A stretch of 30,639 nucleotides of DNA from a virus, in the IMG/VR virus record IMGVR_UViG_3300045935_000022, positions 1 to 30,639 of that record; one strand, given 5' to 3'. A model generated the notes under the pieces. The model did not search any database. It saw nothing but the letters and a program-made list of their open reading frames with translations, and had not been told where the DNA came from. Of this stretch, positions 5,185 to 22,033 are shown piece after piece. Numbering within the stretch: position 1 is the stretch's first letter; every line of letters starts with the position of its first letter. Both the position numbers and the translations under genes were made by a program.

Positions 5185-5614
5185 AGGTTGGGCCGATTAT
5201 GGACCGCCAAAGGACTCGCGCGACGAACGCATTGCCACTCTTGAGCAATCACTGGCAAGCAGGGATTCAGAACTGTCTGCATTCAAGAGGCAATTTGAAT
5301 CGAACGAGGAACAGCGCCTACACCTGATCGAAGAACTGTCGCGGCTTGCCGACCAGCTCGCCGCCTGTCAGCGGGAACGTGAGGAGATGGCGCGTAATTT
5401 CCTAAATGAATCGTTTCTGCACGCCGAACAGAAAAGACGCGCCGAAGCCGATGCCGGCTATGCGGAAGTTGGCCGCCTAGTATTCCGGTACGTTGATCGC
5501 ATGTTCGACCCTGGCCTCTGCGATCCATTGGAAAAGATCGTCGGCGAGTTTGAGGCGGCGTTCAACGAACTGACGCACCCGAAGGCCGCCCTCCATCCGG
5601 GCGAGGCGGGGTGA
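5174..5614 (+). CDS. Coiled-coil hypothetical protein
   Basis: A 146-aa protein starting at ATG 5174, preceded by GGGAGG at good spacing. Residues 18-90 form a long coiled coil (heptads such as RIATLEQSLASRDSELSAFKRQ and IEELSRLADQLAACQRE). The C-terminal part (RLVFRYVDRMFDPGLCDPLEKIVGEFEAAF) is a helical domain. No enzyme motif is seen; an oligomerising accessory role is possible but unproven. Confidence 0.6.
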   Translation: MMTEGWADYGPPKDSRDERIATLEQSLASRDSELSAFKRQFESNEEQRLHLIEELSRLADQLAACQREREEMARNFLNESFLHAEQKRRAEADAGYAEVGRLVFRYVDRMFDPGLCDPLEKIVGEFEAAFNELTHPKAALHPGEAG

Positions 5615-5618
5615 CGGG

Positions 5619-5837
5619 ATGAAAATGGACAATGAAAAATACGAACGGTTAGTTCGCGAGAATAATGAGCGCGATCAAGAGTCACGCCGTAAGTGGGCAA
5701 AATTCAATCTGGAAATGCAGGCGCTATCTATCCGTTTGCAAATGGAACACCTGATTAACACTTACGAAATGATGTATGCCATTGACCGTTCTCGCGCTGA
5801 TCCGCGCTTAGACAATACGGCGAGCATTCGAGCATGA
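5619..5837 (+). CDS. Hypothetical helical protein, 72 aa
   Basis: A small charged protein, almost wholly helical by composition (NNERDQESRRKWAKFNLEMQALSIRLQMEHLINTYE is the core). The start could be ATG 5619 or 5625. It is the only gene here separated from its upstream neighbour (4 bases) rather than overlapping. It ends in an ATGA overlap with the excisionase candidate. The base composition is more AT-rich than its neighbours. No function is recognised. Confidence 0.5.
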   Translation: MKMDNEKYERLVRENNERDQESRRKWAKFNLEMQALSIRLQMEHLINTYEMMYAIDRSRADPRLDNTASIRA

Positions 5838-6061
5838 GCGACCTGCTTCTAACCCCCGAGGAAGTCCACGAAGCCACGGGCGCGATCAAGCGCGCGAAGC
5901 AGATGGCATGGTTCCTGGGCCACGGTATTCCTGCCGAGTTGGGGACCGATCGCCGGGTCAAGGTCTTGCGCGCCGCCTACGTGGCGAAGATGATGCCCGG
6001 CACCGGACGCCATAAAGCCAAGACCGAACCCCGGCTGGATCTGATCCGCAAGGCGGGATAA
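5834..6061 (+). CDS. DUF4224-like protein, candidate excisionase/recombination directionality factor
   Basis: A 75-aa protein directly upstream of the integrase, sharing a TAATG overlap with it. The pattern LLTPEEVHEATGAIKRAKQMAWFLGHGIP..LGTDRRVKVLRAAY matches the DUF4224 family, small winged-helix-like proteins that usually sit beside phage integrases. In the lambda-type systems a small DNA-bending protein in this position sets the direction of recombination. A role as excisionase is therefore likely but is inferred from family and position. Confidence 0.65.
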   Translation: MSDLLLTPEEVHEATGAIKRAKQMAWFLGHGIPAELGTDRRVKVLRAAYVAKMMPGTGRHKAKTEPRLDLIRKAG

Positions 6062-7053
6062 TGCCGCGACCCCGAAAGCACCATACCGGCCTGCCGTCCT
6101 ATTGCCAGCGCGACAAGATGACCGGGGCGCTATGGATGTACGTCCCCGACGAGAGCCGCAAAAGTGGCCTACGCAGGCAGCCCTACGGCTCGCTGGACGC
6201 GCTCCTGGCGGCATGGCGTTCGACGTGGGGCGAGAGCAAGCGCCGCGGCGAACGTGTCGTGGGCGACCTGCTGGACGCCTGCCTGGCTGAATTTAGCGAG
6301 CGGGTGAAGAAAGGGAGTTTGTCGCCGGTCACGATGACGGATTACACACGCTGCCATGCCAGCTTGCGGCCGATCTGGTCGGACGTGCTGATCGAGGATG
6401 TAGACGTGCCGATGCTCTATCGCTGGCGGGATGCGCGGGGCGCGGTGGCGCAGGTCAGGACGAACAGGGAACGCACGTTCCTGTTCGAGTCCTTTCAGTT
6501 GGCGGTGCGCCGGGGAACGATCAAATCCAACCCCGTGCAGTATTTGGAGCGGTTCACCGAGAAAGCGCGGACGAAGTACGTCACCGACGCCGAGTTCATG
6601 GCCGTGTTTGCCGTGGCGCCGCCCGTGGTCCGCGCTGCGATGCTGATGGCCGCTGTGACCGGACTTCGGCAGGGCGACATTCTGCGCATTCGCCGGTCGG
6701 ACTTTTCCGACGCCGGCCTGACGGTTCACACGCGCAAGACCGGCAAAACGCTGGTGTTCGGCTGGACCGAAGGGCTGCGCCGCGCGGTCCTGGCTGCCGT
6801 CGAATCGCGCGAGTTCATTCCGCTGATGCTGATCGCCACGGAGACAGGCCGTGCCTATACCGGCGACGGCTTCCGGTCACTGTGGCATCGCGCCTATACG
6901 AAGGCCGGCATTGCCGACGCCTTCACCTTCAACGATCTGCGCGCCAAGGCCGGCAGCGATTCCCGCGACTGGCGATTGCTGGGCCATCTGGATCAGCGCA
7001 CGTTCGAGCGCGTGTATAACCGACTGCCTCGGCACGTCACGCCGAGCCGCTAA
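6061..7053 (+). CDS. int: Phage tyrosine integrase
   Basis: A 330-aa site-specific recombinase that inserts and removes the phage genome. The C-terminal catalytic domain has Arg203 (TGLRQGD), a Lys in HTRKTGKT (226 or 229), Arg294 (NDLRAKAGSD), His309 (LLGHLDQ) and the nucleophile Tyr319 (FERVYNR). The N-terminal region holds an arm-type-binding segment and a core-binding SAM-like domain (about 65-170). The HxxR motif reads NDLR: residue 291 is Asn where His is usual. The stop codon TAA is part of one of the repeated CTAAAAACT motifs flanking the tRNA-derived core, and the core lies 122 bases downstream, the normal place for attP. Confidence 0.95.
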   Translation: MPRPRKHHTGLPSYCQRDKMTGALWMYVPDESRKSGLRRQPYGSLDALLAAWRSTWGESKRRGERVVGDLLDACLAEFSERVKKGSLSPVTMTDYTRCHASLRPIWSDVLIEDVDVPMLYRWRDARGAVAQVRTNRERTFLFESFQLAVRRGTIKSNPVQYLERFTEKARTKYVTDAEFMAVFAVAPPVVRAAMLMAAVTGLRQGDILRIRRSDFSDAGLTVHTRKTGKTLVFGWTEGLRRAVLAAVESREFIPLMLIATETGRAYTGDGFRSLWHRAYTKAGIADAFTFNDLRAKAGSDSRDWRLLGHLDQRTFERVYNRLPRHVTPSR

Positions 7054-12161: not shown

Positions 12162-14093
12162 CTACTTCTGGTCGTAAGGCAGCGCGAGTCGCGCCAAGTT
12201 GTTTTTCGGTTTCGCCAGTCGCAGGCGGTTGGCCTGGATCGCATCCGCCGCGGTGAGTGCGTTCGCTGCTTTCACGCCGACACGGCGCGTCACGGCATTG
12301 TTAAGCGCATTCGCGCCTTCGACCGCGCCGACGCCGGCCAGATACCCGGGAATGCCGCCGAAAACGCCACCGACACCCGCGCCGGCATGGCCGAGCATGC
12401 GCATCAGCAGCGGCGAGTTTTGAATGGCGCGCTGCGCATCGGCGGCTGTGCCCGGCCCTGTGGCGGCGATGGTGTTGTGACTGACCGTGCGACGCTGCAA
12501 GGCGTCCATCACGTTTTCGATCTGTCGCCGGGCTTGCGGCGACATCGGGAAGTTCGCCCGGTTGTCCTTGGCGATGAGCGCCTTGACGGCCGCTAGGCTA
12601 ACGCTTTGATTGCCGCCAGCGTCCCGCCCACCACTATCAATTGCGCTAAGGAGGGCGCGAGCTGCTTCCATATCGTTGATAGGCTGCGAATGACGTGCAT
12701 ACGCGGCCAGATGAGCGCGATAGCCCGGTACTGCTCGTTCGATCGCATCAGTAATCGCGGCCGAGACAGGTTCATATTTGACGATTTCCTGAGGAGTCAC
12801 CGCGCCATGTTGCGGAATGCTCCGCAAGGTGGACCCGACGCCCTGGCGAATGTCGTCCAGCGCCGTCACGGTGATCTTACCCCCGTTTTGGGCCATGTTG
12901 GCGCGCAGCAGGCCCAGATGCTTGATCGCGGCCCGGCGCACGGTGTCATTGCCAGAAAGCGTCAGGTTTTTCAGCACCCCGACGATGGGCGTCGGATCGA
13001 CCAGCTTTGCGCCGGTTTCCGGCAGGTTCGCGCTCCGGAACTGCTGGCTCATCGCCGTTCGCGCGTTCTTCGCCGCCGTCATCGCGGCATCGTCCCGCGC
13101 CACGCTGGCGACATGCGCCCGCAGGGCGGCATTGTTGGCCGATTCCTGATTGGCGAACGCAGGGGCGGTCTGGCCGTTGTTGCGCAGGATGCGTTCGGCC
13201 TGGACCGCTTCCGGGGTGCTGAGGGCTTGGGCCGGTGTCGGGGTGAAGCCGGGGATCGGCGAAGGCTGACGCAAAGCGGTTTCCGTCGCTGGATCATTGC
13301 CCAGCAGACGCGACACGCGCGCATCCGCGATGGCTTCCCGGCCCGCGGGCGTCAGGTAGCGGGCGCCGGCTTTGATCGCGCCTGCCGCAACGCCTAAGCC
13401 GTGCGTAGCGGCGCCCAATACCGGGGCCGTCACCGCGCCTGTGGCGATCTGTGCGGCCTTCTGGCTGGCATAGTCGCCGGGATCGGTCACAGGCGCCGCG
13501 GCACCCATCAAACCGCCCTCAGCCGCAAGCAGCGCGCCTTTCTTGGCGACGTTGGCAATCTTGCTGACGATGTTCGGCCCCGCTGGCGCAATCTTCGGCA
13601 GCAATCCGGCGGCGCGAAGTTCGGCGATGCCGGTCATCCACGGCAGCACTTCGCCGACCGTTGCGCCGGCATAGGCGCCCGCCGTGTCCCCGGTTTTACC
13701 TTGGTAATCCGCTTCGCGTTGGCGCATGGCGGCGTCGTCTTGATTGACGACATCGGACAGGGCGCCGCCCGTGACGGCGTTGGCGCCATGCTCAATCGTC
13801 TGGGCATGCTCAATCGTCTGGGCCGTGCCATGCAAGAAGTTCAGCGCATGATGCAGCAGAGCGCGCCCGGCATCGCCGACTTCGGGGCCGAGTCCGTAGA
13901 TTCGATCCGTCATTGCCTGATCGGCGCGCGTTTTGTCCGCCGACGGCGCACCGCTCACCATCTGCGCGAACGCGGAGTTGTTGGCGGCAGGTTGGGACAA
14001 ATGCGCCTTCACGGCGTTGTCCATGACCGCATCGGGCGTGTCGTCGGGGAACTCCAGAATCGTTCCGTCATGCAAGTGCGCTTGCTTGCTCAC
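12162..14093 (-). CDS. Large DNA-ejection (internal virion) protein
   Basis: A 643-aa protein with GTG start overlapping the previous stop (GTGA). The N-terminal HLHDGTILEFPDDTPDAVMDNAVKAHL is typical of the first domain of phage internal and ejection proteins. Ala-rich helices follow, with several weakly hydrophobic Gly/Ala segments (KGALLAAEGGLMGAAAP; GHAGAGVGGVFGGIPGYLAGVGAVEGAN) suited to entering the host membrane. By order and size it takes the place of P22 gp16 or gp20, which leave the head with the DNA. No lysozyme motif was seen. A perfect 18-bp tandem duplication (13787-13822) doubles a six-residue AQTIEH unit. Confidence 0.7.
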   Translation of the reverse strand: MSKQAHLHDGTILEFPDDTPDAVMDNAVKAHLSQPAANNSAFAQMVSGAPSADKTRADQAMTDRIYGLGPEVGDAGRALLHHALNFLHGTAQTIEHAQTIEHGANAVTGGALSDVVNQDDAAMRQREADYQGKTGDTAGAYAGATVGEVLPWMTGIAELRAAGLLPKIAPAGPNIVSKIANVAKKGALLAAEGGLMGAAAPVTDPGDYASQKAAQIATGAVTAPVLGAATHGLGVAAGAIKAGARYLTPAGREAIADARVSRLLGNDPATETALRQPSPIPGFTPTPAQALSTPEAVQAERILRNNGQTAPAFANQESANNAALRAHVASVARDDAAMTAAKNARTAMSQQFRSANLPETGAKLVDPTPIVGVLKNLTLSGNDTVRRAAIKHLGLLRANMAQNGGKITVTALDDIRQGVGSTLRSIPQHGAVTPQEIVKYEPVSAAITDAIERAVPGYRAHLAAYARHSQPINDMEAARALLSAIDSGGRDAGGNQSVSLAAVKALIAKDNRANFPMSPQARRQIENVMDALQRRTVSHNTIAATGPGTAADAQRAIQNSPLLMRMLGHAGAGVGGVFGGIPGYLAGVGAVEGANALNNAVTRRVGVKAANALTAADAIQANRLRLAKPKNNLARLALPYDQK

Positions 14094-15670
14094 GGGATGC
14101 GGTTTCCTTTGGCGTCGTAACGGATGACTTTCGGCGAGTTAGCGCCTTGGCTGGACTGGTCGAAGAACTGCTGATTCTGCGGAGTCACGAACGAACGCGC
14201 GTCGGCGGCAATGCCCATGCCTTGCTTGTACTGCTCCGTAAGCGCCTGAATCTTCGACTCGATCAAGCTGGAAATCTTCGTGACCACGCCATGAAGCTGA
14301 TCCGGCGAAGCCGCACTATCAATGACCGAACTCCACGTCCGAATATCGGCCTCGCTGCCACCAGCGCCACGCCAGACGCGGGTCAGTTCGTCCACCACGG
14401 CCTTCTTCGTGGCATTGAACGTCTTGACGCGCGGATCGCCCATCGCGTTTTCGGCATAGTTGGCGACGGAATTGAAGGTCGGGAAGCGCGAGTTTTTCAG
14501 TGCATCGCCCGCGTCCTGTAATTCCTTCAAGTGGCCGGCCACGGTGTTCAGGGCGTTGATGCTCTGCGCGGCTTTGCCGGACGTGAAATCGGAACGGGTC
14601 TTGGCACGGGCGTTGTAGTTGATGGCGTCGAATTGCGGGTCGTACTGAGACACCGCGGCCAACATGCCCTGCCAGTACGGCGACTTGAGCGCGGTTCCGG
14701 TCGGGAACTGCATCCGACCCGAGGCCAACGCCTGAACCTGCGTGCGCGTGGCGTTATCGAGCGTTGCCAAGTAGTCGTTGCCGGTTTTCGTTTCATCGCC
14801 AGGAATCGCGGGCGGCGCGGAATCCTGACCGCCGCTACCGATAACCAACTGCCTTAGTTGCTCAGGCGTGGCGCCAAGCTGCCGCGCCAAGTCGATCCGC
14901 TCTTGCAATGCGCTGGGGCCGCGCTGCGACTGACGCGGCGGCACCACCTGGAGAAATCCACCACCCGATCCCATGCCACCGCCGCTCATCGGGGTGGAGG
15001 GCATTTGGCCTTGCTGATCGGCGATCGCGGCGGCTTTCGTGGCGTCAATGACCGATTGTGGCGTACCCGGCGCGAAGTCAAACTGCACGTTCGGAAGCGC
15101 GGCAGACGGAGCAGCAGCGGGCGCGCTGTTAGGCACCTGCCCGCCACCCGGAGGAAAGGCCCAGCCGCCACGGGCGCTGTCCCAGACCGGCTTCTGCGGC
15201 GCGAAATTGCTGTTCGCGTGAATGACCTTGCCCGTCGTCGGATCCACGATCTCGCCACCCGGCGAAACATTCATCGGACGCAAGGCAGTGGCATTGTTGC
15301 CACCGATGAGCATAGCCAGCTGCGCAATCTTCGGCACAAAGGATGGATCGAACTGCTGTGGTACCGGGAAGCCCAACTGGGTGGCATGCTGCGCCAGCTG
15401 CGGGTACTGCTGCGCCTGCATGTCGGGCGGCAGCTGGGCGAACCATTGCGCGGCCTGACCGAGCGATTGCAGGGCTTGTTCCTTCTGCTTCTGCTGGTCG
15501 TCGCGGATTGCCAGCGGGTTGCCGCCGTTCATGGCAATTCCCGCGTAGTCCGGCTGACCGCCTTGGGCAACCTGCGCCGTCAATTTGGCAAGATTGTTCT
15601 GCTGACCGCGTTGGCGACCGAGATCGCCTTCCCCTTGCACGAACTTGGTCAGTTCAAGCAGATTGTTCAT
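14090..15670 (-). CDS. Ejection/internal virion protein
   Basis: A 526-aa Gln/Ala-rich protein, starting at ATG 15670 in a TAATG overlap. The first 110 residues are a helical region with QQ and QL repeats; the middle (about 140-290) is Pro/Gly-rich and probably flexible; the C-terminal half has helices (FTSGKAAQSINALNTVAGHLKELQDAGDALKNS and SLIESKIQALTEQYKQGMG). This is a common arrangement in podovirus ejection proteins. Its place between the gp10-type genes and the 643-aa gene fits that role. The family is inferred from context and composition. Confidence 0.6.
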   Translation of the reverse strand: MNNLLELTKFVQGEGDLGRQRGQQNNLAKLTAQVAQGGQPDYAGIAMNGGNPLAIRDDQQKQKEQALQSLGQAAQWFAQLPPDMQAQQYPQLAQHATQLGFPVPQQFDPSFVPKIAQLAMLIGGNNATALRPMNVSPGGEIVDPTTGKVIHANSNFAPQKPVWDSARGGWAFPPGGGQVPNSAPAAAPSAALPNVQFDFAPGTPQSVIDATKAAAIADQQGQMPSTPMSGGGMGSGGGFLQVVPPRQSQRGPSALQERIDLARQLGATPEQLRQLVIGSGGQDSAPPAIPGDETKTGNDYLATLDNATRTQVQALASGRMQFPTGTALKSPYWQGMLAAVSQYDPQFDAINYNARAKTRSDFTSGKAAQSINALNTVAGHLKELQDAGDALKNSRFPTFNSVANYAENAMGDPRVKTFNATKKAVVDELTRVWRGAGGSEADIRTWSSVIDSAASPDQLHGVVTKISSLIESKIQALTEQYKQGMGIAADARSFVTPQNQQFFDQSSQGANSPKVIRYDAKGNRIP

Positions 15671-16398
15671 TACCAGGGGCTCCCACCGAAGCCGTAGTTC
15701 GGGTCTTGATAGCCGCCGTAGGGCGTTGTCCCGCCGAAGCCATAGTTGTTGTCGCCCGACGAACTGGGAATGCCACCAAAGCCGTAGTTGTCACTTGGCA
15801 GGCTGCCGTAGCTCGAATCGGTCAACGGCTGGTTCTGGCCCTGGTACCAGTTGTTGAACAGACCGCCGAGCGAAGCCGCGAGCTGACCGTTGCTGTCGTA
15901 GCCCTGCTGCTGCGCGGAACTGAGATTGCCGTAGGCGCCGACGAGGTTGCTGCCAACCCCCGCGCCCAGATTGCCGAGCGCCGTCGCCGAGTTCTGGCCC
16001 ATCTGCGCCAACCGCTCGAGCGAGCCGCGGTAATTGCCGAGGTTTTGCGAGGCCAAGCCGTTGAGGTGCTGCGCGAGTTCAAGTTGCGTGCCGGGATCGT
16101 AGAGTTGACCGCGAGCGGCGGCGCTATGGTCGAGCCCGTACTGTTCTTCACCGCGGGCGTAGAGATAATCCGGGGAATTGGCGAAGCCCGAATAATCGCC
16201 GTTCGCCAGCCGCGTCAGTCCATTCGCACCCGTGACCCCCAGCCCGAGATACGGCGCCTGGTAGCCCTTCGCTTCCCCATAGACTTGTTTCAGGAAGTCA
16301 ATCGGGATCCGCGCATTGTTTGCGGCGTGATCGGACGCCTGCTGGTTTTGGCTGTTGCCGTAAAGATCAACGACGGCCGAGATTATTGAGCCCCAGAT
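15670..16398 (-). CDS. Ejection protein with aromatic-glycine tail; apparent ATC start
   Basis: A 242-aa frame with conserved core NSPDYLYARGEEQYGLDHSAAARGQL...AQHLNGLASQNLGNYRGSL, a pattern seen in a phage family encoded among tail genes and thought to act in DNA transfer. The frame is open from a stop at 16483 and has no ATG, GTG or TTG until well inside the core (TTG at 16056). The only well-placed start is ATC at 16398, 8 bases after GGAG. The N-terminal IWGSIISAVVDLYGNSQ is like the start of relatives. Residues about 200-242 hold three NYGFGG repeats. Stop overlaps the next ATG (TAATG). Confidence 0.65.
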   Translation of the reverse strand: MWGSIISAVVDLYGNSQNQQASDHAANNARIPIDFLKQVYGEAKGYQAPYLGLGVTGANGLTRLANGDYSGFANSPDYLYARGEEQYGLDHSAAARGQLYDPGTQLELAQHLNGLASQNLGNYRGSLERLAQMGQNSATALGNLGAGVGSNLVGAYGNLSSAQQQGYDSNGQLAASLGGLFNNWYQGQNQPLTDSSYGSLPSDNYGFGGIPSSSGDNNYGFGGTTPYGGYQDPNYGFGGSPW

Positions 16399-16925
16399 GA
16401 CACTTTCTCCTTTTTCATCAGGTGTGCTGCTACCAGGCGCTGCGTCCGTGCCGCGTCCAGACCGCCCAAAATGGCGGGAATGTCACATTGAATGTTTCGC
16501 CCGATCATCTCGCGGGCGCGGCCTTCGTCAAACTTCGTGCCCTTCAGAAAGCTCCACAGCCGCGCCAGCGTGTCCATGTCGTCTAGCTGGTGGAAATGCA
16601 CCGCGCGCACGTTCGGAGCGCCCGCTACGCTCGCGTAGGCCACTTCCTGACGGGTGCGCAGCGCCGGCAAGCCGTCGATCGGCAAGCCCACGCGCTCACA
16701 GGACGTAGCGATCTCGCGCATATCCCGAAACACGAACAGGTATCGTGCGTCGGGCCAGCGATGCCACAGCGCGTCGAAGAACAACGCGCTGCCGGTGTCG
16801 ACAATCCCTTCCACCGTCAACTCATCCAGTGAGCCGATGCGAGACAACGCCTCATGCTCCGCACCCAACCACTCAGCGAGCCAGGTCGATCGACTGCGCG
16901 GGAGGGTGATGACGGCATAGCGCAT
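16383..16925 (-). CDS. Sulfotransferase-like protein (PAPS-binding)
   Basis: A 180-aa protein beginning MRYAVITLPRSRSTWLAEWL. Residues 8-16 match the 5'-phosphosulfate loop of PAPS-dependent sulfotransferases (LPRSxSTWL), and FVFRDMREIATS (64-75) matches the 3'-phosphate-binding R-x7-S region. The chain is shorter than typical sulfotransferases (about 250-350 aa). An acceptor is unknown. The ATG at 16925 has an upstream GTGGA and follows the previous stop by 2 bases. It lies inside the tail/ejection gene block, unusual for metabolic enzymes. A related P-loop kinase-like fold is the alternative. Confidence 0.65.
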   Translation of the reverse strand: MRYAVITLPRSRSTWLAEWLGAEHEALSRIGSLDELTVEGIVDTGSALFFDALWHRWPDARYLFVFRDMREIATSCERVGLPIDGLPALRTRQEVAYASVAGAPNVRAVHFHQLDDMDTLARLWSFLKGTKFDEGRAREMIGRNIQCDIPAILGGLDAARTQRLVAAHLMKKEKVSSGAQ

Positions 16926-16927
16926 GG

Positions 16928-17146
16928 CTAGTCCACGGATTCCGCCTGCATCACCGCCGCCAGGATCGGACACTTGATCGGACTGGAAACCGTCACTTCA
17001 AACACAAACTGGCGAGACTGCCCGCAGCGGTTGCGCTTGACCTGCTTCACGAATTTGCCGGTCGTGCCCAGGTCATGGGAGGTAGCGTTGCCGAAGGTGT
17101 TGCCGCCGTCGGTCGAGACGCGAATCATCAGTTGATGGTCAGCCAC
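16928..17146 (-). CDS. gp10 C-terminal-like domain in a separate +1 frame
   Basis: A GTG at 17146 gives 72 aa (VADHQLMIRVSTDGGNTFGN...QFVFEVTVSSPIKCPILAAVM). The S-x-D-G-G-x-T-(F/W) and VFEVTVSxP patterns are those I expect at the C-terminus of some gp10-type stabilisation proteins. Here it overlaps the end of the gp10-like gene by 8 bases in the +1 frame. It may be a separate coupled gene or the tail of gp10 reached by a shift. Upstream of 17146 the frame is a nonsense shadow of the gp10-like gene. Confidence 0.6.
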   Translation of the reverse strand: MADHQLMIRVSTDGGNTFGNATSHDLGTTGKFVKQVKRNRCGQSRQFVFEVTVSSPIKCPILAAVMQAESVD

Positions 17147-19316
17147 GTTCGCGCACCACCGTCGCCACCATGTTGCGAATGTCCGACAGCGGCGCCCATT
17201 GGGCGAATTCAAAGTCGCTCGCATGGATGTATTGGCCGCCGCTCCACACCAGCACTTCACCCGTGTTGTCGCCGCTCGAGTCCTGCGGAATGAATACGTA
17301 GTCGGTACCCGCGCCGGGGTAGCTGTCGTAGTGCGTCGTAAACGACGTTTTCGTGTAGGGCGAATCCGCTAGTCGAATCTTGGCAACCGTCGCCGCCGCC
17401 TGGTCGACTTCAAAGACCCGCGTGCCGTCGTAAGCGACCCCATCGGTATTGTCGAGGGTCGCTTGAACGGTTGTGAAGTCGGTGCCGCTCCACGTCAACC
17501 GCTGGCCGCCACTGAGCGCGAGCGAATCGCCAATCGCCAGCACGTCGGTCGTGTGGACCGTCGCCGTCGTGCTGTACTGCACGCTCAACACGTCTGCCGT
17601 GTTGGTAATGACGATGTATTTCGTGCCGGTGCCACCGACAAACACCGCTTTTCCGCCCATCGAGCAGGACATGCAGTAATCGGGGTGGCCCTTGCTGTCG
17701 TCCAGCGTCAGCGTGTACAGCAGCGAGAACGCCGAACCGTTGAAGCCGTAGAGTTCGGCCTTGCAGTTGTTGCCGGCGTTGTCGGTACGGAACGCCACCA
17801 GCCGCGTTTCCGACAGCTTTGCCACGCCCTGGTAAATCTTGGTCGGGGTGTTCGTGATGCTGGCCGTCAGCAACATACTGCCCGAGCCGTTCGGGAAATA
17901 CGCGCAAATGCTGTCGGCGTTGCCCAGGGTCGAGTAATGGACAATCGTGAAATCGCGATCCGCCAGGCCGCCCGTCATCGCGAAGGGTCGCGATTGAAAG
18001 GACTCGCCGCTGGTCGTGGCGCCGGAGACGGTGAAGTTGTTGTCGGCGACCGTGTAGTTGACCAGCGCAAACCCGCCGCCGCCTTGCATTACCACCACGT
18101 CGAAATTGGCCCCCACGGGCAATGGCTCGTACACGCTCACAGGCCCTCCGGTGTTGATGACCAGTTCCAGCGATTCGCCGATTACCATGTTTTGATTGGC
18201 GTGAAGCACGCCGAGAACGCGTTTGCGCGGCAACGGATCGGGGCCTTCCAGTACATGGTCCCAGTCCAGCCGATAGAGCATTCCCGAGTTGAAGCTGCCG
18301 CCGTACCAGACGCCGTTCCACTCGAACAGCGTATTGAGCCGCCAGCGGTTCAAGCCGTAGGACTGGCGGCGATGCCATTTGCGGCTCGCCACGTCGTAGC
18401 CCCATGTGTTCCCATCGGGACAGGTCAGGTAATAGACCTTGTGGCCCCTGTCTTCCCAGGCGAACGCGAAGCATTTGGACAGGTCGCACTTCGCCAGCGC
18501 CTGTTCGATCGGAAACGTCGGAATCCGGACCGGGGTGTAGCCATCCAACCGATACACGCTGCCGTCATCGCCGACGAACAGCACGGAATTGTCGAGGTTG
18601 ACGACGCAGTACGCGGACGCACAACCGCGCTGAATGGTGATCTTCTTGTTGACGAACAAGATGTGATCGGCGATCGACGCAGGGTCCGTCGTCTGGTCGA
18701 ACACTTCCGTCGTCGTCTGACTGAAGGCCAGCAGTTCCGAATGGCAGACCTTGATGCCGACCAGCAAATCCGGCGAGGCTTCGCCCTGGTACTTTTCCAG
18801 CGCGGAATACGCGCTCAGGTCGTTGATCGCGGAGTTGCGGAAGAACTGCCGGCTGGGGTCCAGCGACACGCCCAGCTGCCCGATGTAGTCGAACACGATC
18901 GCGCCGGGAAAGGCGCTGTCGGTGATCTGCGTCAGCGCGCCGGATTGCGTGTCGTACACGTACCCGGAACTGCCAGTACCAAAGGCCACTTGGTTGGCCT
19001 GGTTCGAGGTCGCGGACACCCGGCCTTCCCCGGGAATCGTTCCGATCAACAGGGTGCGATCGTCGTTGTCCAGACGATAGAGTGAGGTACCTGATACGAC
19101 CAACCGCTGACCGCCGACCACGATGCCACACCGATGCGGCCCGTCGCCCACCTCAACCACTTCACGCAAGCCCGGCGCATCGACCGCCAGCAAGGGCGAA
19201 CGCGTTCCCGCTTGTTCGGCGGTAACCGGAATGTAGTTAACGGTGTCTTGAACCGAAAACGCCCGTGTTTCGTCCGCATAGCAGCCATCCACGATGGGCA
19301 GCGGCGTACGCTTCAT
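17139..19316 (-). CDS. gp10-like packaged-DNA stabilisation protein
   Basis: A 725-aa protein like P22 gp10, which binds under the portal and gp4 ring to seal packaged DNA in the head. The N-terminal segment LPIVDGCYADETRAFSVQDTVNYIPVTAEQAG, the TIPGEGRVSATSNQANQVAFGT stretch and repeated VYxLDGYTPVRIPTFPIEQAL / KWHRRQSYGLNRWR segments fit the beta-propeller-like family. It is longer than P22 gp10 (about 470 aa) by a large beta-rich C-terminal region. It follows the gp4-like gene with an ATGA overlap. The C-terminus appears to continue in the +1 frame. Confidence 0.8.
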   Translation of the reverse strand: MKRTPLPIVDGCYADETRAFSVQDTVNYIPVTAEQAGTRSPLLAVDAPGLREVVEVGDGPHRCGIVVGGQRLVVSGTSLYRLDNDDRTLLIGTIPGEGRVSATSNQANQVAFGTGSSGYVYDTQSGALTQITDSAFPGAIVFDYIGQLGVSLDPSRQFFRNSAINDLSAYSALEKYQGEASPDLLVGIKVCHSELLAFSQTTTEVFDQTTDPASIADHILFVNKKITIQRGCASAYCVVNLDNSVLFVGDDGSVYRLDGYTPVRIPTFPIEQALAKCDLSKCFAFAWEDRGHKVYYLTCPDGNTWGYDVASRKWHRRQSYGLNRWRLNTLFEWNGVWYGGSFNSGMLYRLDWDHVLEGPDPLPRKRVLGVLHANQNMVIGESLELVINTGGPVSVYEPLPVGANFDVVVMQGGGGFALVNYTVADNNFTVSGATTSGESFQSRPFAMTGGLADRDFTIVHYSTLGNADSICAYFPNGSGSMLLTASITNTPTKIYQGVAKLSETRLVAFRTDNAGNNCKAELYGFNGSAFSLLYTLTLDDSKGHPDYCMSCSMGGKAVFVGGTGTKYIVITNTADVLSVQYSTTATVHTTDVLAIGDSLALSGGQRLTWSGTDFTTVQATLDNTDGVAYDGTRVFEVDQAAATVAKIRLADSPYTKTSFTTHYDSYPGAGTDYVFIPQDSSGDNTGEVLVWSGGQYIHASDFEFAQWAPLSDIRNMVATVVRERG

Positions 19317-19732
19317 CGAACGATCGGACTATCCGTGTAAATATTCCAATAGCCGCCGTTCTCCGGACACGGCAAGTCATTGGTCACGCGCAACGGCATC
19401 TCGACCAACCGATCGCGGCGCAACTCGGCCAGCCCTTCGGCGGCCAAATCCACGACGCGCCCGAAGTCACTGGGATGCGCGTAACCGGGCAGGCGAACCG
19501 CCAGGTTATGGATGATTGCGTCCTCGGCTTCGCTGGGGCTCGGCATTTCGTCATCAGGGGCGGAGACATCCGACCAGCCCAACGCGAGCCCGGAGGCTTC
19601 CCAGCGCCGAATCATGCGATTCAAGACCGCAATCGCGTCTTCCATGTCCTGACCGGGCACCGCGGCGGCGGCGTCGATCGCGTTCAAGTCGAGCAGCGCG
19701 CCACGAACAATGGCGGAAACCAACGTAGCCAT
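19313..19732 (-). CDS. gp4-like tail accessory factor
   Basis: A 139-aa helical protein like P22 gp4, which assembles as a ring of 12 on the portal to extend the tail tube. The beginning (VSAIVRGALLDLNAIDAAAAVPGQDMEDAIAVLNRMIRRWEASGL) matches the gp4 N-terminal helices, and the later EAEDAIIHNLAVRLPGYAH segment matches the second part. Order gp4 then gp10 is the same as in P22. It overlaps the glycosyltransferase stop (TGATG). Confidence 0.82.
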   Translation of the reverse strand: MATLVSAIVRGALLDLNAIDAAAAVPGQDMEDAIAVLNRMIRRWEASGLALGWSDVSAPDDEMPSPSEAEDAIIHNLAVRLPGYAHPSDFGRVVDLAAEGLAELRRDRLVEMPLRVTNDLPCPENGGYWNIYTDSPIVR

Positions 19733-20466
19733 CAGCCGAGTTCCTTCTCAGGCACGTTCAACAACGTCGAAAAACTTTCGCGGTTCGGGTCGTCGATCCC
19801 GCCCGGCTGGCGCCGCAGGAACTTGTCGAAGTTGCCCGGGTAGGCTTGATCGGCCGAGTGATGCGTCAGGTCCAGATTCGGAATCAGCCAGATATCGCCG
19901 CCGCATTCGTGCCAGCGACGGGAAAAGGCGTAGTCCTCGCCCCACCACACGCCCTTCCAAGCGCCGTGGTTGAACAGATCGACCGAATAGCAATCGGGAT
20001 CGCCATACAACAGTTCCGGATACGCCCGCATGAACTGTTGCACCGCGGCTCGAGTCACTTTGAGAAAGCCGGCCGGTACGCGATCGGCGCGAATGCAGCC
20101 ATCGGCGCGCGTCTGCGGACGCCCATCGCCGAAGGTGTGGATCGTCGCCATGTACGCTTCTTCGTCTTTCTTGAACCGATAGGTGCCGGCGACGACATCG
20201 CCTTCGGTTTCGATCAGCCGCAACAAATCTTCCGGACGAAAGCTCAGGTCATAATCCAAGAAGATGATGACCTCAGCGCCCGCCGTCAGCGCACGACGCA
20301 ACAAGGTCGCACGGGCGTTACTGATGTACGGACAGCCTCGCTCCTGCACGACAAACTCAGTCCAACCGGCCGCTTTGATCAGCGGCGCCGCGGCCTCGCA
20401 CGATTCCATGAACGGACCCATCGGGCGATGCAGAAACGGAACACACAACGCGACAATCTTTTCCAT
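19732..20466 (-). CDS. GT-A-type glycosyltransferase
   Basis: A 244-aa protein. KIVALCVPFLHRPMGPFMESCEAAAPL opens with a Rossmann-like strand, CPYISNARATLLRRAL continues the fold, and IIFLDYDLSF (67-76) holds a D-x-D motif (DYD 71-73) that would bind the metal and nucleotide sugar. WGEDYAFSRRW (175-185) supplies the acidic residue expected of the acceptor side, and LTHHSADQ another possible metal contact. The start at ATG 20466 is chosen; upstream it is the terminator. It lies just before the gp4-like gene, so it is made with tail proteins. Donor and acceptor sugars are unknown. Confidence 0.8.
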   Translation of the reverse strand: MEKIVALCVPFLHRPMGPFMESCEAAAPLIKAAGWTEFVVQERGCPYISNARATLLRRALTAGAEVIIFLDYDLSFRPEDLLRLIETEGDVVAGTYRFKKDEEAYMATIHTFGDGRPQTRADGCIRADRVPAGFLKVTRAAVQQFMRAYPELLYGDPDCYSVDLFNHGAWKGVWWGEDYAFSRRWHECGGDIWLIPNLDLTHHSADQAYPGNFDKFLRRQPGGIDDPNRESFSTLLNVPEKELG

Positions 20467-20818: not shown

Positions 20819-22033
20819 TTAAGCGGCGCTGAGATCGTTCGGAATACGAACGGCCAATTCCGGACGCAACACGCCGGCCCCGTACAGAATGTCGAAGCGA
20901 CTCACGAACATATCGTTCGCGATGTCGAAGCCATTCATGAAACGCATGGTGATGCCCTTCCACGTCCGCTGGGCGCAATCGACGCCCATGCCCTTCGGCA
21001 GGGGAAGATCGGCGGTCACGAAGTAGAAGGCGTCCGGCGAGAACGCGAGGTTCTGGCCGTAGGTGGTGCTGGCCGAGCCCTTGATCGTCACCGCCACGTC
21101 ATCGACCGGAAGCGCGGAAATGTTCTGCTTCGGGCCGGTCAGGTAGAACGACGGCGAGACATGCAAGGTCACCGTGCCACCGGCCGAAGCCTGGGTAATC
21201 ACGAATTCCTGCAAGTAGCCGAGGTTCTGCTTGGTCTGCGGATGCACGGCGTTGACGCCGGCAATGGTGATGACATCGCCCACCGCGAAGGTACCCGAGC
21301 CGGTATCGACATCGACCGTCGAACCGCCATCGGTCGCGATGCCTGCGGCCGTCAGGTAGCTGCCGTTGGCCGAACCACGGGCCAGCGACGGCATCAGCGA
21401 GGTCTGGTACCAGTCGTACCCGAGGGTTTTCGACTGGACCAGGCCGGTCTTCCACTGATCGCCCAACTGCGACTGCGGGTTGAACAGGCCGGTTTGCGAA
21501 TTGGTCACCTGCGCGTTGCCGACCAGATTGGTCAACATGTAACGCTCCGCAGGGGCCAAGTTGTTGCCGAGCAGGACGCTCGCGGCCAACGTGGTGGAGT
21601 TGTCGTTGAACGAACCGAAGTCGCCGACGCAGTTGTAGACCTGCGGCACGACGGTGCTCAGGACATCGTATTCGACCGCCGCGACCAGATCAGGGATCTT
21701 GGTGTCGATGAACTGTTCTTGGTAGTCGTCGATGTCGAGCGACAGTTCGGCGGAAGTCGCGCCGGTATCCACGCCCTTTTGGGTCGAGACAGTGACGTTG
21801 ACCACCTGATCGACCTGCGGCTCGATGGACATGACGCGGCCGGTGCGGATGGTGGCGCGCTGCGGGATGCGGACTTGCACGGTATCGCCGGGCTTGCCGC
21901 CGGCGCCGTACTTGGTGGAGAAGCGGTCGTCGTACTGACGGTTGATCTTGTCGAGGAAGGTCGGTGCCTGGAAAAGCACCGCCATCGCTCGATCAAGAAT
22001 GATCGAACTGGTGAGAAGGGTGTTGCCACTCAT
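20819..22033 (-). CDS. Major capsid (coat) protein, P22-like
   Basis: A 404-aa coat protein that forms the icosahedral head. The start (MSGNTLLTSSIILDRAMAVL), the FSTKYGAGGKPGDTVQVRIPQR segment and the VDTGATSAELSLDIDDYQEQFID region match the P22 coat family, which has an HK97 fold with an inserted beta domain. Length is close to that of P22 (430 aa). It sits directly after the scaffold gene, as in P22. The long open frame on the opposite strand (20519-22276) is a shadow due to composition. Confidence 0.9.
   Translation of the reverse strand: MSGNTLLTSSIILDRAMAVLFQAPTFLDKINRQYDDRFSTKYGAGGKPGDTVQVRIPQRATIRTGRVMSIEPQVDQVVNVTVSTQKGVDTGATSAELSLDIDDYQEQFIDTKIPDLVAAVEYDVLSTVVPQVYNCVGDFGSFNDNSTTLAASVLLGNNLAPAERYMLTNLVGNAQVTNSQTGLFNPQSQLGDQWKTGLVQSKTLGYDWYQTSLMPSLARGSANGSYLTAAGIATDGGSTVDVDTGSGTFAVGDVITIAGVNAVHPQTKQNLGYLQEFVITQASAGGTVTLHVSPSFYLTGPKQNISALPVDDVAVTIKGSASTTYGQNLAFSPDAFYFVTADLPLPKGMGVDCAQRTWKGITMRFMNGFDIANDMFVSRFDILYGAGVLRPELAVRIPNDLSAA

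Follow-up and report, generated by a model that had tools for sequence, protein, structure and literature searches.

A sulfotransferase-fold protein encoded beside the DNA-ejection genes of a phage and its possible role in virion modification

What an enzyme of the sulfotransferase type might be doing among the structural genes of a virus is the question raised by the locus described here. The window is a viral DNA record of 30,639 nucleotides (IMG/VR record IMGVR_UViG_3300045935_000022) from a short-tailed phage, in which a first-pass annotation had recognized a sulfotransferase-like enzyme encoded within the tail and ejection block; sequence profiles, structure prediction, and synteny all back that identification. 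The function of phage sulfotransferases has been called unclear (PMC10580990). A fixed place beside the ejection genes, together with partners from protein-modifying families, makes the question concrete.

The gene runs on the minus strand from an ATG at 16925-16923 to a TAA at 16385-16383, as read from the open reading frames of the 30.6-kb record, and encodes 180 amino acids. The interval 16383-16925 given by the first-pass annotation is correct, and the strand is specified here as minus; on translation of the window the plus-strand frame across this interval is interrupted by stops, so a plus-strand reading was dropped. In the direction of reading, the upstream genes encode the coat protein, a glycosyltransferase-2-like protein, the adaptor Ad3, the gp10-like head closure protein Hc3, and the Hc3 C-terminal domain as a small split-off gene; downstream lie a P22 gp7/phrog_598-type ejection protein (ejA) and two longer ejection-type proteins (Table 1). 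This is the position between a gp10-like gene and the ejection genes that had been proposed, and, judged from the operon, the sulfotransferase is likely made together with virion proteins. The closest relatives of the window are the IMG/VR contigs L001 (83%) and L002 (76%), both of which keep the gene order. In L002 an HNH endonuclease gene (5456-6004) is inserted upstream of the sulfotransferase gene, separating it from the gene for the Hc3 C-terminal domain. The glycosyltransferase-2-like gene is also present in L001, L002, and L092, and its occurrence in the window makes glycosylation of the virion possible.

Table 1. Coordinates and supporting evidence for features of the window and of comparison loci
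Feature	Coordinates	Strand	Basis or remark
Sulfotransferase-fold protein, 180 aa	16383..16925	-	Profile, AlphaFold2 model, fold matches, conserved residues
5'-phosphosulfate (PAPS) loop, residues 8-15, LPRSRSTW	16881..16904	-	Invariant L8, P9, R10, S11, W15
His24, candidate catalytic base	16854..16856	-	Invariant; aligns with His of the NodH HDE motif
Asp43, second candidate catalytic base	16797..16799	-	Asp or Glu in 40/40 relatives
3'-phosphate-binding motif, Arg67-X7-Ser75	16701..16727	-	R67 and S75 invariant; Glu71 at the RXXXDXXXS position
ejA, first DNA-ejection protein, P22 gp7/phrog_598 type, Tyr/Gly-rich C-terminal tail	15670..16398	-	
ejB, second ejection-type protein	14090..15670	-	Position; matches in L001, L002, and others
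ejC, third ejection-type protein	12162..14093	-	Position; match in L001
Hc3 head closure (gp10-like), phrog_578, variable domain past residue ~393	17139..19316	-	
Hc3 C-terminal domain (head-closure/tail-hub) as separate small gene	16928..17146	-	GTG overlapping upstream TGA
Glycosyltransferase-2-like, between coat and Ad3 genes	19732..20466	-	phrog_1574 E 2.6e-13; Glycos_transf_2 sub-threshold
Slot enzymes (hydroxylase with cupin or with acetyltransferase) without sulfotransferase	L102 5868-6796; L104 6045-6926; L107 6501-7565		

Against Pfam, the window protein alone yields two matches, both to sulfotransferase families and both below threshold (Sulfotransfer_3, PF13469, 14.4 bits versus a cut-off of 22.8; Sulfotransfer_4, PF17784, 13.9 versus 27). 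The relative in L010 scores 27.7 bits with Sulfotransfer_4, above the gathering value, and among 40 family members Sulfotransfer_3 is detected in 26 and Sulfotransfer_4 in 22. A PDB search with the window sequence alone returned no matches; with the family profile, SgdX2, a sulfotransferase, ranks first (E 3e-4), and almost all of the other matches belong to sulfotransferases as well. The best N-terminal profile match is the lipopolysaccharide (LPS) sulfotransferase NodH, and NCBIfam gave no useful match for the protein. A second search of IMG/VR found 315 related stretches, of which the best 80 were retained. Residue conservation was counted in an alignment of 40 sequences, whose members are mostly 23-34% identical to the window protein. 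The dN/dS values between the window gene and its relatives (0.10-0.18) indicate purifying selection.

Structure prediction and a Foldseek search, both suggested by the first-pass annotation, gave a confident AlphaFold2 model of the 180-residue protein (mean pLDDT 92, pTM 0.86) whose top matches are sulfotransferases. In a VIA structural comparison, all 50 of 50 among the matches listed are sulfotransferases, the best being human TPST1 (Z 10.7, rmsd 3.0, 145 residues). TPST1 and TPST2 (5wrj, 3ap3) are the nearest fold matches, at 17% identity, and the phage protein differs from them in having no luminal targeting. VIA rows less than 1 Z unit apart were counted as tied; because several other sulfotransferases fall within that margin, the TPST match is not evidence for tyrosine sulfation. 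With SgdX2 (8y9p), Cpz8 (9kf2), and NodH (9vki) the protein has in common the fold, the 5'-loop Arg and Ser, the Arg...Ser of the 3' site, and an acid and a His conserved at base-like positions, whereas its 180 residues are fewer than the ~195-280 of these solved enzymes. It differs from the PAPS sulfotransferase superfamily at large in scoring below the Pfam cut-offs and in being encoded in a phage late operon. The core alignment spans residues 1-153 of 180, which favors a minimal sulfotransferase over a diverged P-loop protein, the two descriptions originally offered. Neither a fold without a PAPS pocket nor kinase features were found: the fold is that of a sulfotransferase, the Walker A motif GXXXXGK[ST] is absent, and the LPRSRSTW loop has no GK. 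Motif and fold together rule out a kinase or NTPase reading of the kind implied by the PHROGs label 'hydrolase'.

Both motifs named by the first-pass annotation, LPRSRSTW (residues 8-15) and FRDMREIATS (Arg67 to Ser75), occur in the protein. Eight residues (L8, P9, R10, S11, W15, H24, R67, and S75) are invariant in 40/40 relatives, and position 71 of the 3' site is Glu or Asp in 32 of the 40. Arg10 occupies the loop position at which Lys is usual in sulfotransferases. The superfamily has been described by a loop Lys or Arg, a 3'-site Ser, and a β-sheet PAPS-binding fold, with the 3' consensus RXXXDXXXS (PMC11625862); all three features are found here, with Arg10 and Arg67/Ser75 each present in 40/40 sequences and the sheet architecture in the AlphaFold2 model. 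The base-type residues of sulfotransferases are His or Glu, with Asp in the schistosome enzyme, and both His24 and Asp/Glu43 are kept in 40/40. Asp43 aligns with the Asp of the TDLP/TVDW segments of the schistosome, SgdX2, and Cpz8 sulfotransferases. In the Schistosoma mansoni enzyme Asp91 bonds the acceptor hydroxyl (PMC4618941), and Asp43 is inferred to correspond to it. Invariant residues in 40 relatives, purifying selection, and the sulfotransferase fold together argue that the two motifs are not chance occurrences. On this evidence from sequence and model, the protein is very probably a sulfotransferase; its fold, its invariant residues, and its dN/dS point to a minimal, probably active PAPS-type enzyme rather than a kinase.

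Clustering of the relatives at 70% identity left 46 non-redundant loci, and in 26 of them the Hc3 marker is present along with that for ejA. In every one of these 26 two-marker loci a sulfotransferase gene lies between Hc3 and ejA on the same strand. A GNAT acetyltransferase frequently accompanies it, either fused to the C terminus of the sulfotransferase (11/26) or encoded as a separate gene after it (10/26); these slot proportions are not population estimates, since the loci were drawn from a ranked list of sulfotransferase relatives. The GNAT domain of the fused protein is modeled with pLDDT 89 and matches acetyltransferases with Z 16.6 over residues 191-349. In two of the 26 loci (L012 and L045) an Asp/Asn beta-hydroxylase replaces GNAT after the sulfotransferase, and an Asp/Asn hydroxylase also occurs in L025, a contig that ends before ejA; all three are above the Pfam cut-off. 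The sulfotransferase is alone in the slot in the window, L049, and L091.

In the sulfotransferase tree, a large GNAT-linked clade stands apart from the clade of the window and from the one linked to hydroxylases. The slot label changes 6 times on this tree, compared with 13.2 times when labels are shuffled, and well-supported branches of the gene tree force at least two separate arrivals in the slot. Mirror-tree correlations are low for the sulfotransferase with Hc3 (r 0.18, p 0.08) and with ejA (r 0.24, p 0.03) relative to that between Hc3 and ejA (r 0.52). Long joint descent of the sulfotransferase with Hc3 and ejA is thus rejected, and the enzyme appears to have been swapped more freely than the structural genes.

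Relatives of the ejection gene that lack the sulfotransferase were retrieved as controls. In L102 and L104 the genes immediately preceding ejA encode an Asp/Asn hydroxylase and, after it, a cupin, and the remaining control loci have small tail-type or unknown proteins in the slot. In the isolate Pseudomonas phage PfAn1, genes for a hydroxylase homolog and an acetyltransferase come, in that order, immediately ahead of those for the internal virion proteins; a search of the literature on PfAn1 found nothing relevant. A GNAT gene also follows a stabilization or tail-hub gene in two further phages, one metagenomic and the other a Vibrio phage.

That the same slot is filled in related phages by sulfating, acetyl-transferring, or hydroxylating enzymes suggests self-modification of the particle. 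The favored reading, given a probability of about 0.5, is that the slot enzyme modifies the virion by sulfating a protein of the ejection apparatus or tail hub, or a glycan carried on such a protein. The sulfotransferase would be made late, alongside the tail and ejection proteins, and would bind host-made PAPS through Arg10/Ser11 and Arg67/Ser75. With Asp43 or His24 as catalytic base, it would move the sulfate onto a hydroxyl of a virion component during assembly, the acceptor most likely being an ejection or tail-hub protein or its glycan. Adjacency of the genes does not by itself establish the substrate. In the window's phage, one candidate acceptor would be the neighboring ejection protein through its Tyr-rich tail, with 7 Tyr in the final 60 residues, several beside Asp or Asn. 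Such a tail is found in the window, L001, L002, and L045 and is missing from most other slot phages, which rules it out as a family-wide acceptor and leaves it a candidate only within the clade of the window. A glycan acceptor would fit the glycosyltransferase-like gene of that clade. A broader proposal, put forward tentatively, is that short-tailed phages possess an exchangeable module of sulfotransferase, GNAT, hydroxylase, and cupin enzymes in a fixed pre-ejection slot, which would chemically adjust the proteins of the ejection apparatus or tail ahead of packaging.

Three other accounts of the gene have been weighed against modification of the virion. The enzyme might sulfate a host envelope glycan or lipopolysaccharide in the manner of NodH, and so change the receptors or the surface of the cell at a late stage of infection. 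Carbohydrates are the targets of many sulfotransferases (PMC11625862), NodH is the best N-terminal profile match, and an integrase-like open reading frame at 6061-7053 suggests a temperate phage. This account is nevertheless unlikely: the gene belongs to the late operon for virion proteins, and the enzymes paired with it come from the GNAT and Asp/Asn hydroxylase families, the latter of a protein-modifying type. Genes for lysogenic conversion are expected outside the late operon, where this one is not. Slightly less likely still is an enzyme-derived assembly factor that acts without catalysis, a counterpart of T7 gp13 (PF11090) and P22 gp14 (DUF2824). Those proteins occupy the same map position, following the tail genes and immediately ahead of the first ejection gene, but they belong to families that differ from the slot enzymes (T7 gp13 is a probable scaffold according to Pfam, and P22 gp14 functions in head morphogenesis). 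Comparison by hhalign of the slot GNAT profile with each gave a probability of 0.2% from single-sequence profiles, a weak test, and homology of the slot GNATs to either is unsupported. The invariance of the cofactor-site residues across the divergent relatives also speaks against this account.

The relatives found outside the slot bear on the remaining account, in which the protein modifies nucleotides, metabolites, or DNA bases and lies in the virion operon by accident, as a cargo gene might. Fourteen of the 46 non-redundant relatives have neither marker, and in the isolates viewed (Casjensviridae and PaMx28) the homolog is outside the virion block. Homologs in Casjensviridae and Pamexvirus adjoin genes for MazG, NADAR, a kinase, a DNA methyltransferase, cysteine dioxygenase, topoisomerase, or primase/exonuclease, and the Casjensviridae proteins possibly have a different, nucleotide- or DNA-related role. 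The family as a whole is therefore not confined to virion functions: in isolates, the relatives lacking both markers have genes of replication, nucleotide metabolism, or other early functions as neighbors. The HNH gene beside the sulfotransferase in L002 also indicates that the spot takes insertions. Against an accidental residence, position and strand are kept in all the two-marker loci after at least two independent arrivals, and this account is considered improbable. Among the Casjensviridae contigs, L003, L006, and L008 have the homolog clustered with cysteine dioxygenase, a MazG-like pyrophosphatase, and a kinase; the L006 cluster adds a NADAR protein and a DNA methyltransferase.

Annotated phage sulfotransferases are already known; what appears new, judged by the papers searched, is the conserved slot for modification enzymes beside the ejection genes. 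Annotated members of the same family include phrog_10855 ('hydrolase'), phrog_38824, PaMx28 gp68, a protein of Xanthomonas phage FoX4 (BFVD), and Pseudomonas phage phiH1 gp01, annotated as 'similar to sulfotransferase'. Homologs in isolates located by tblastn are 24-31% identical to the window sulfotransferase, and none of the isolate records so matched has the sulfotransferase in the slot. The fusion of sulfotransferase and GNAT had no match among annotated phage records, and the slot, the fusion, and virion sulfation are undescribed in the openly accessible literature searched. A standard review of DNA ejection (PMC8954989) makes no mention of covalent modification, and neither 'post-translational' nor 'acetyltransferase' occurs in it. 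If the broader proposal holds, these phages encode a sulfation system for virion proteins that has entered the slot on more than one occasion, and if ejection or tail proteins carry sulfate, acetyl, or hydroxyl groups, covalent modification becomes part of the mechanism of DNA ejection. PfAn1, with hydroxylase and acetyltransferase in the slot, provides an isolated phage for part of the module idea.

The junctions around the slot show further variation. Translational overlap between the sulfotransferase and ejection genes, as first described, holds for L001 and L002, where the ejA ATG is intact and overlaps the sulfotransferase stop, as coupled translation would predict; it is not clean in the window, which has no ATG, GTG, or TTG at the expected ejA start. 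An in-frame ATC (16398-16396, minus strand) located 8 nucleotides past AAGGAG is probably the start there, and would represent either a rare start codon or a contig sequence that differs at base level, through error or genuine change. At the Hc3 junction, the start codon of the C-terminal gene overlaps the upstream stop in the window, in L001 (5786), and in L002 (5278); because both relatives show the same overlap, a frameshift is ruled out and Hc3 is regarded as a split gene. The Hc3 piece ahead of the split varies, appearing by eye Ig/laminin-like in L001 and propeller-like in L002. The coat protein of the window (20819-22033, minus strand) is ~50% identical to those of L001 and L002, which are themselves 99% alike. 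The sulfotransferases of the three are 73-82% identical, which, set against the ~50% of the window coat, indicates strong mosaicism.
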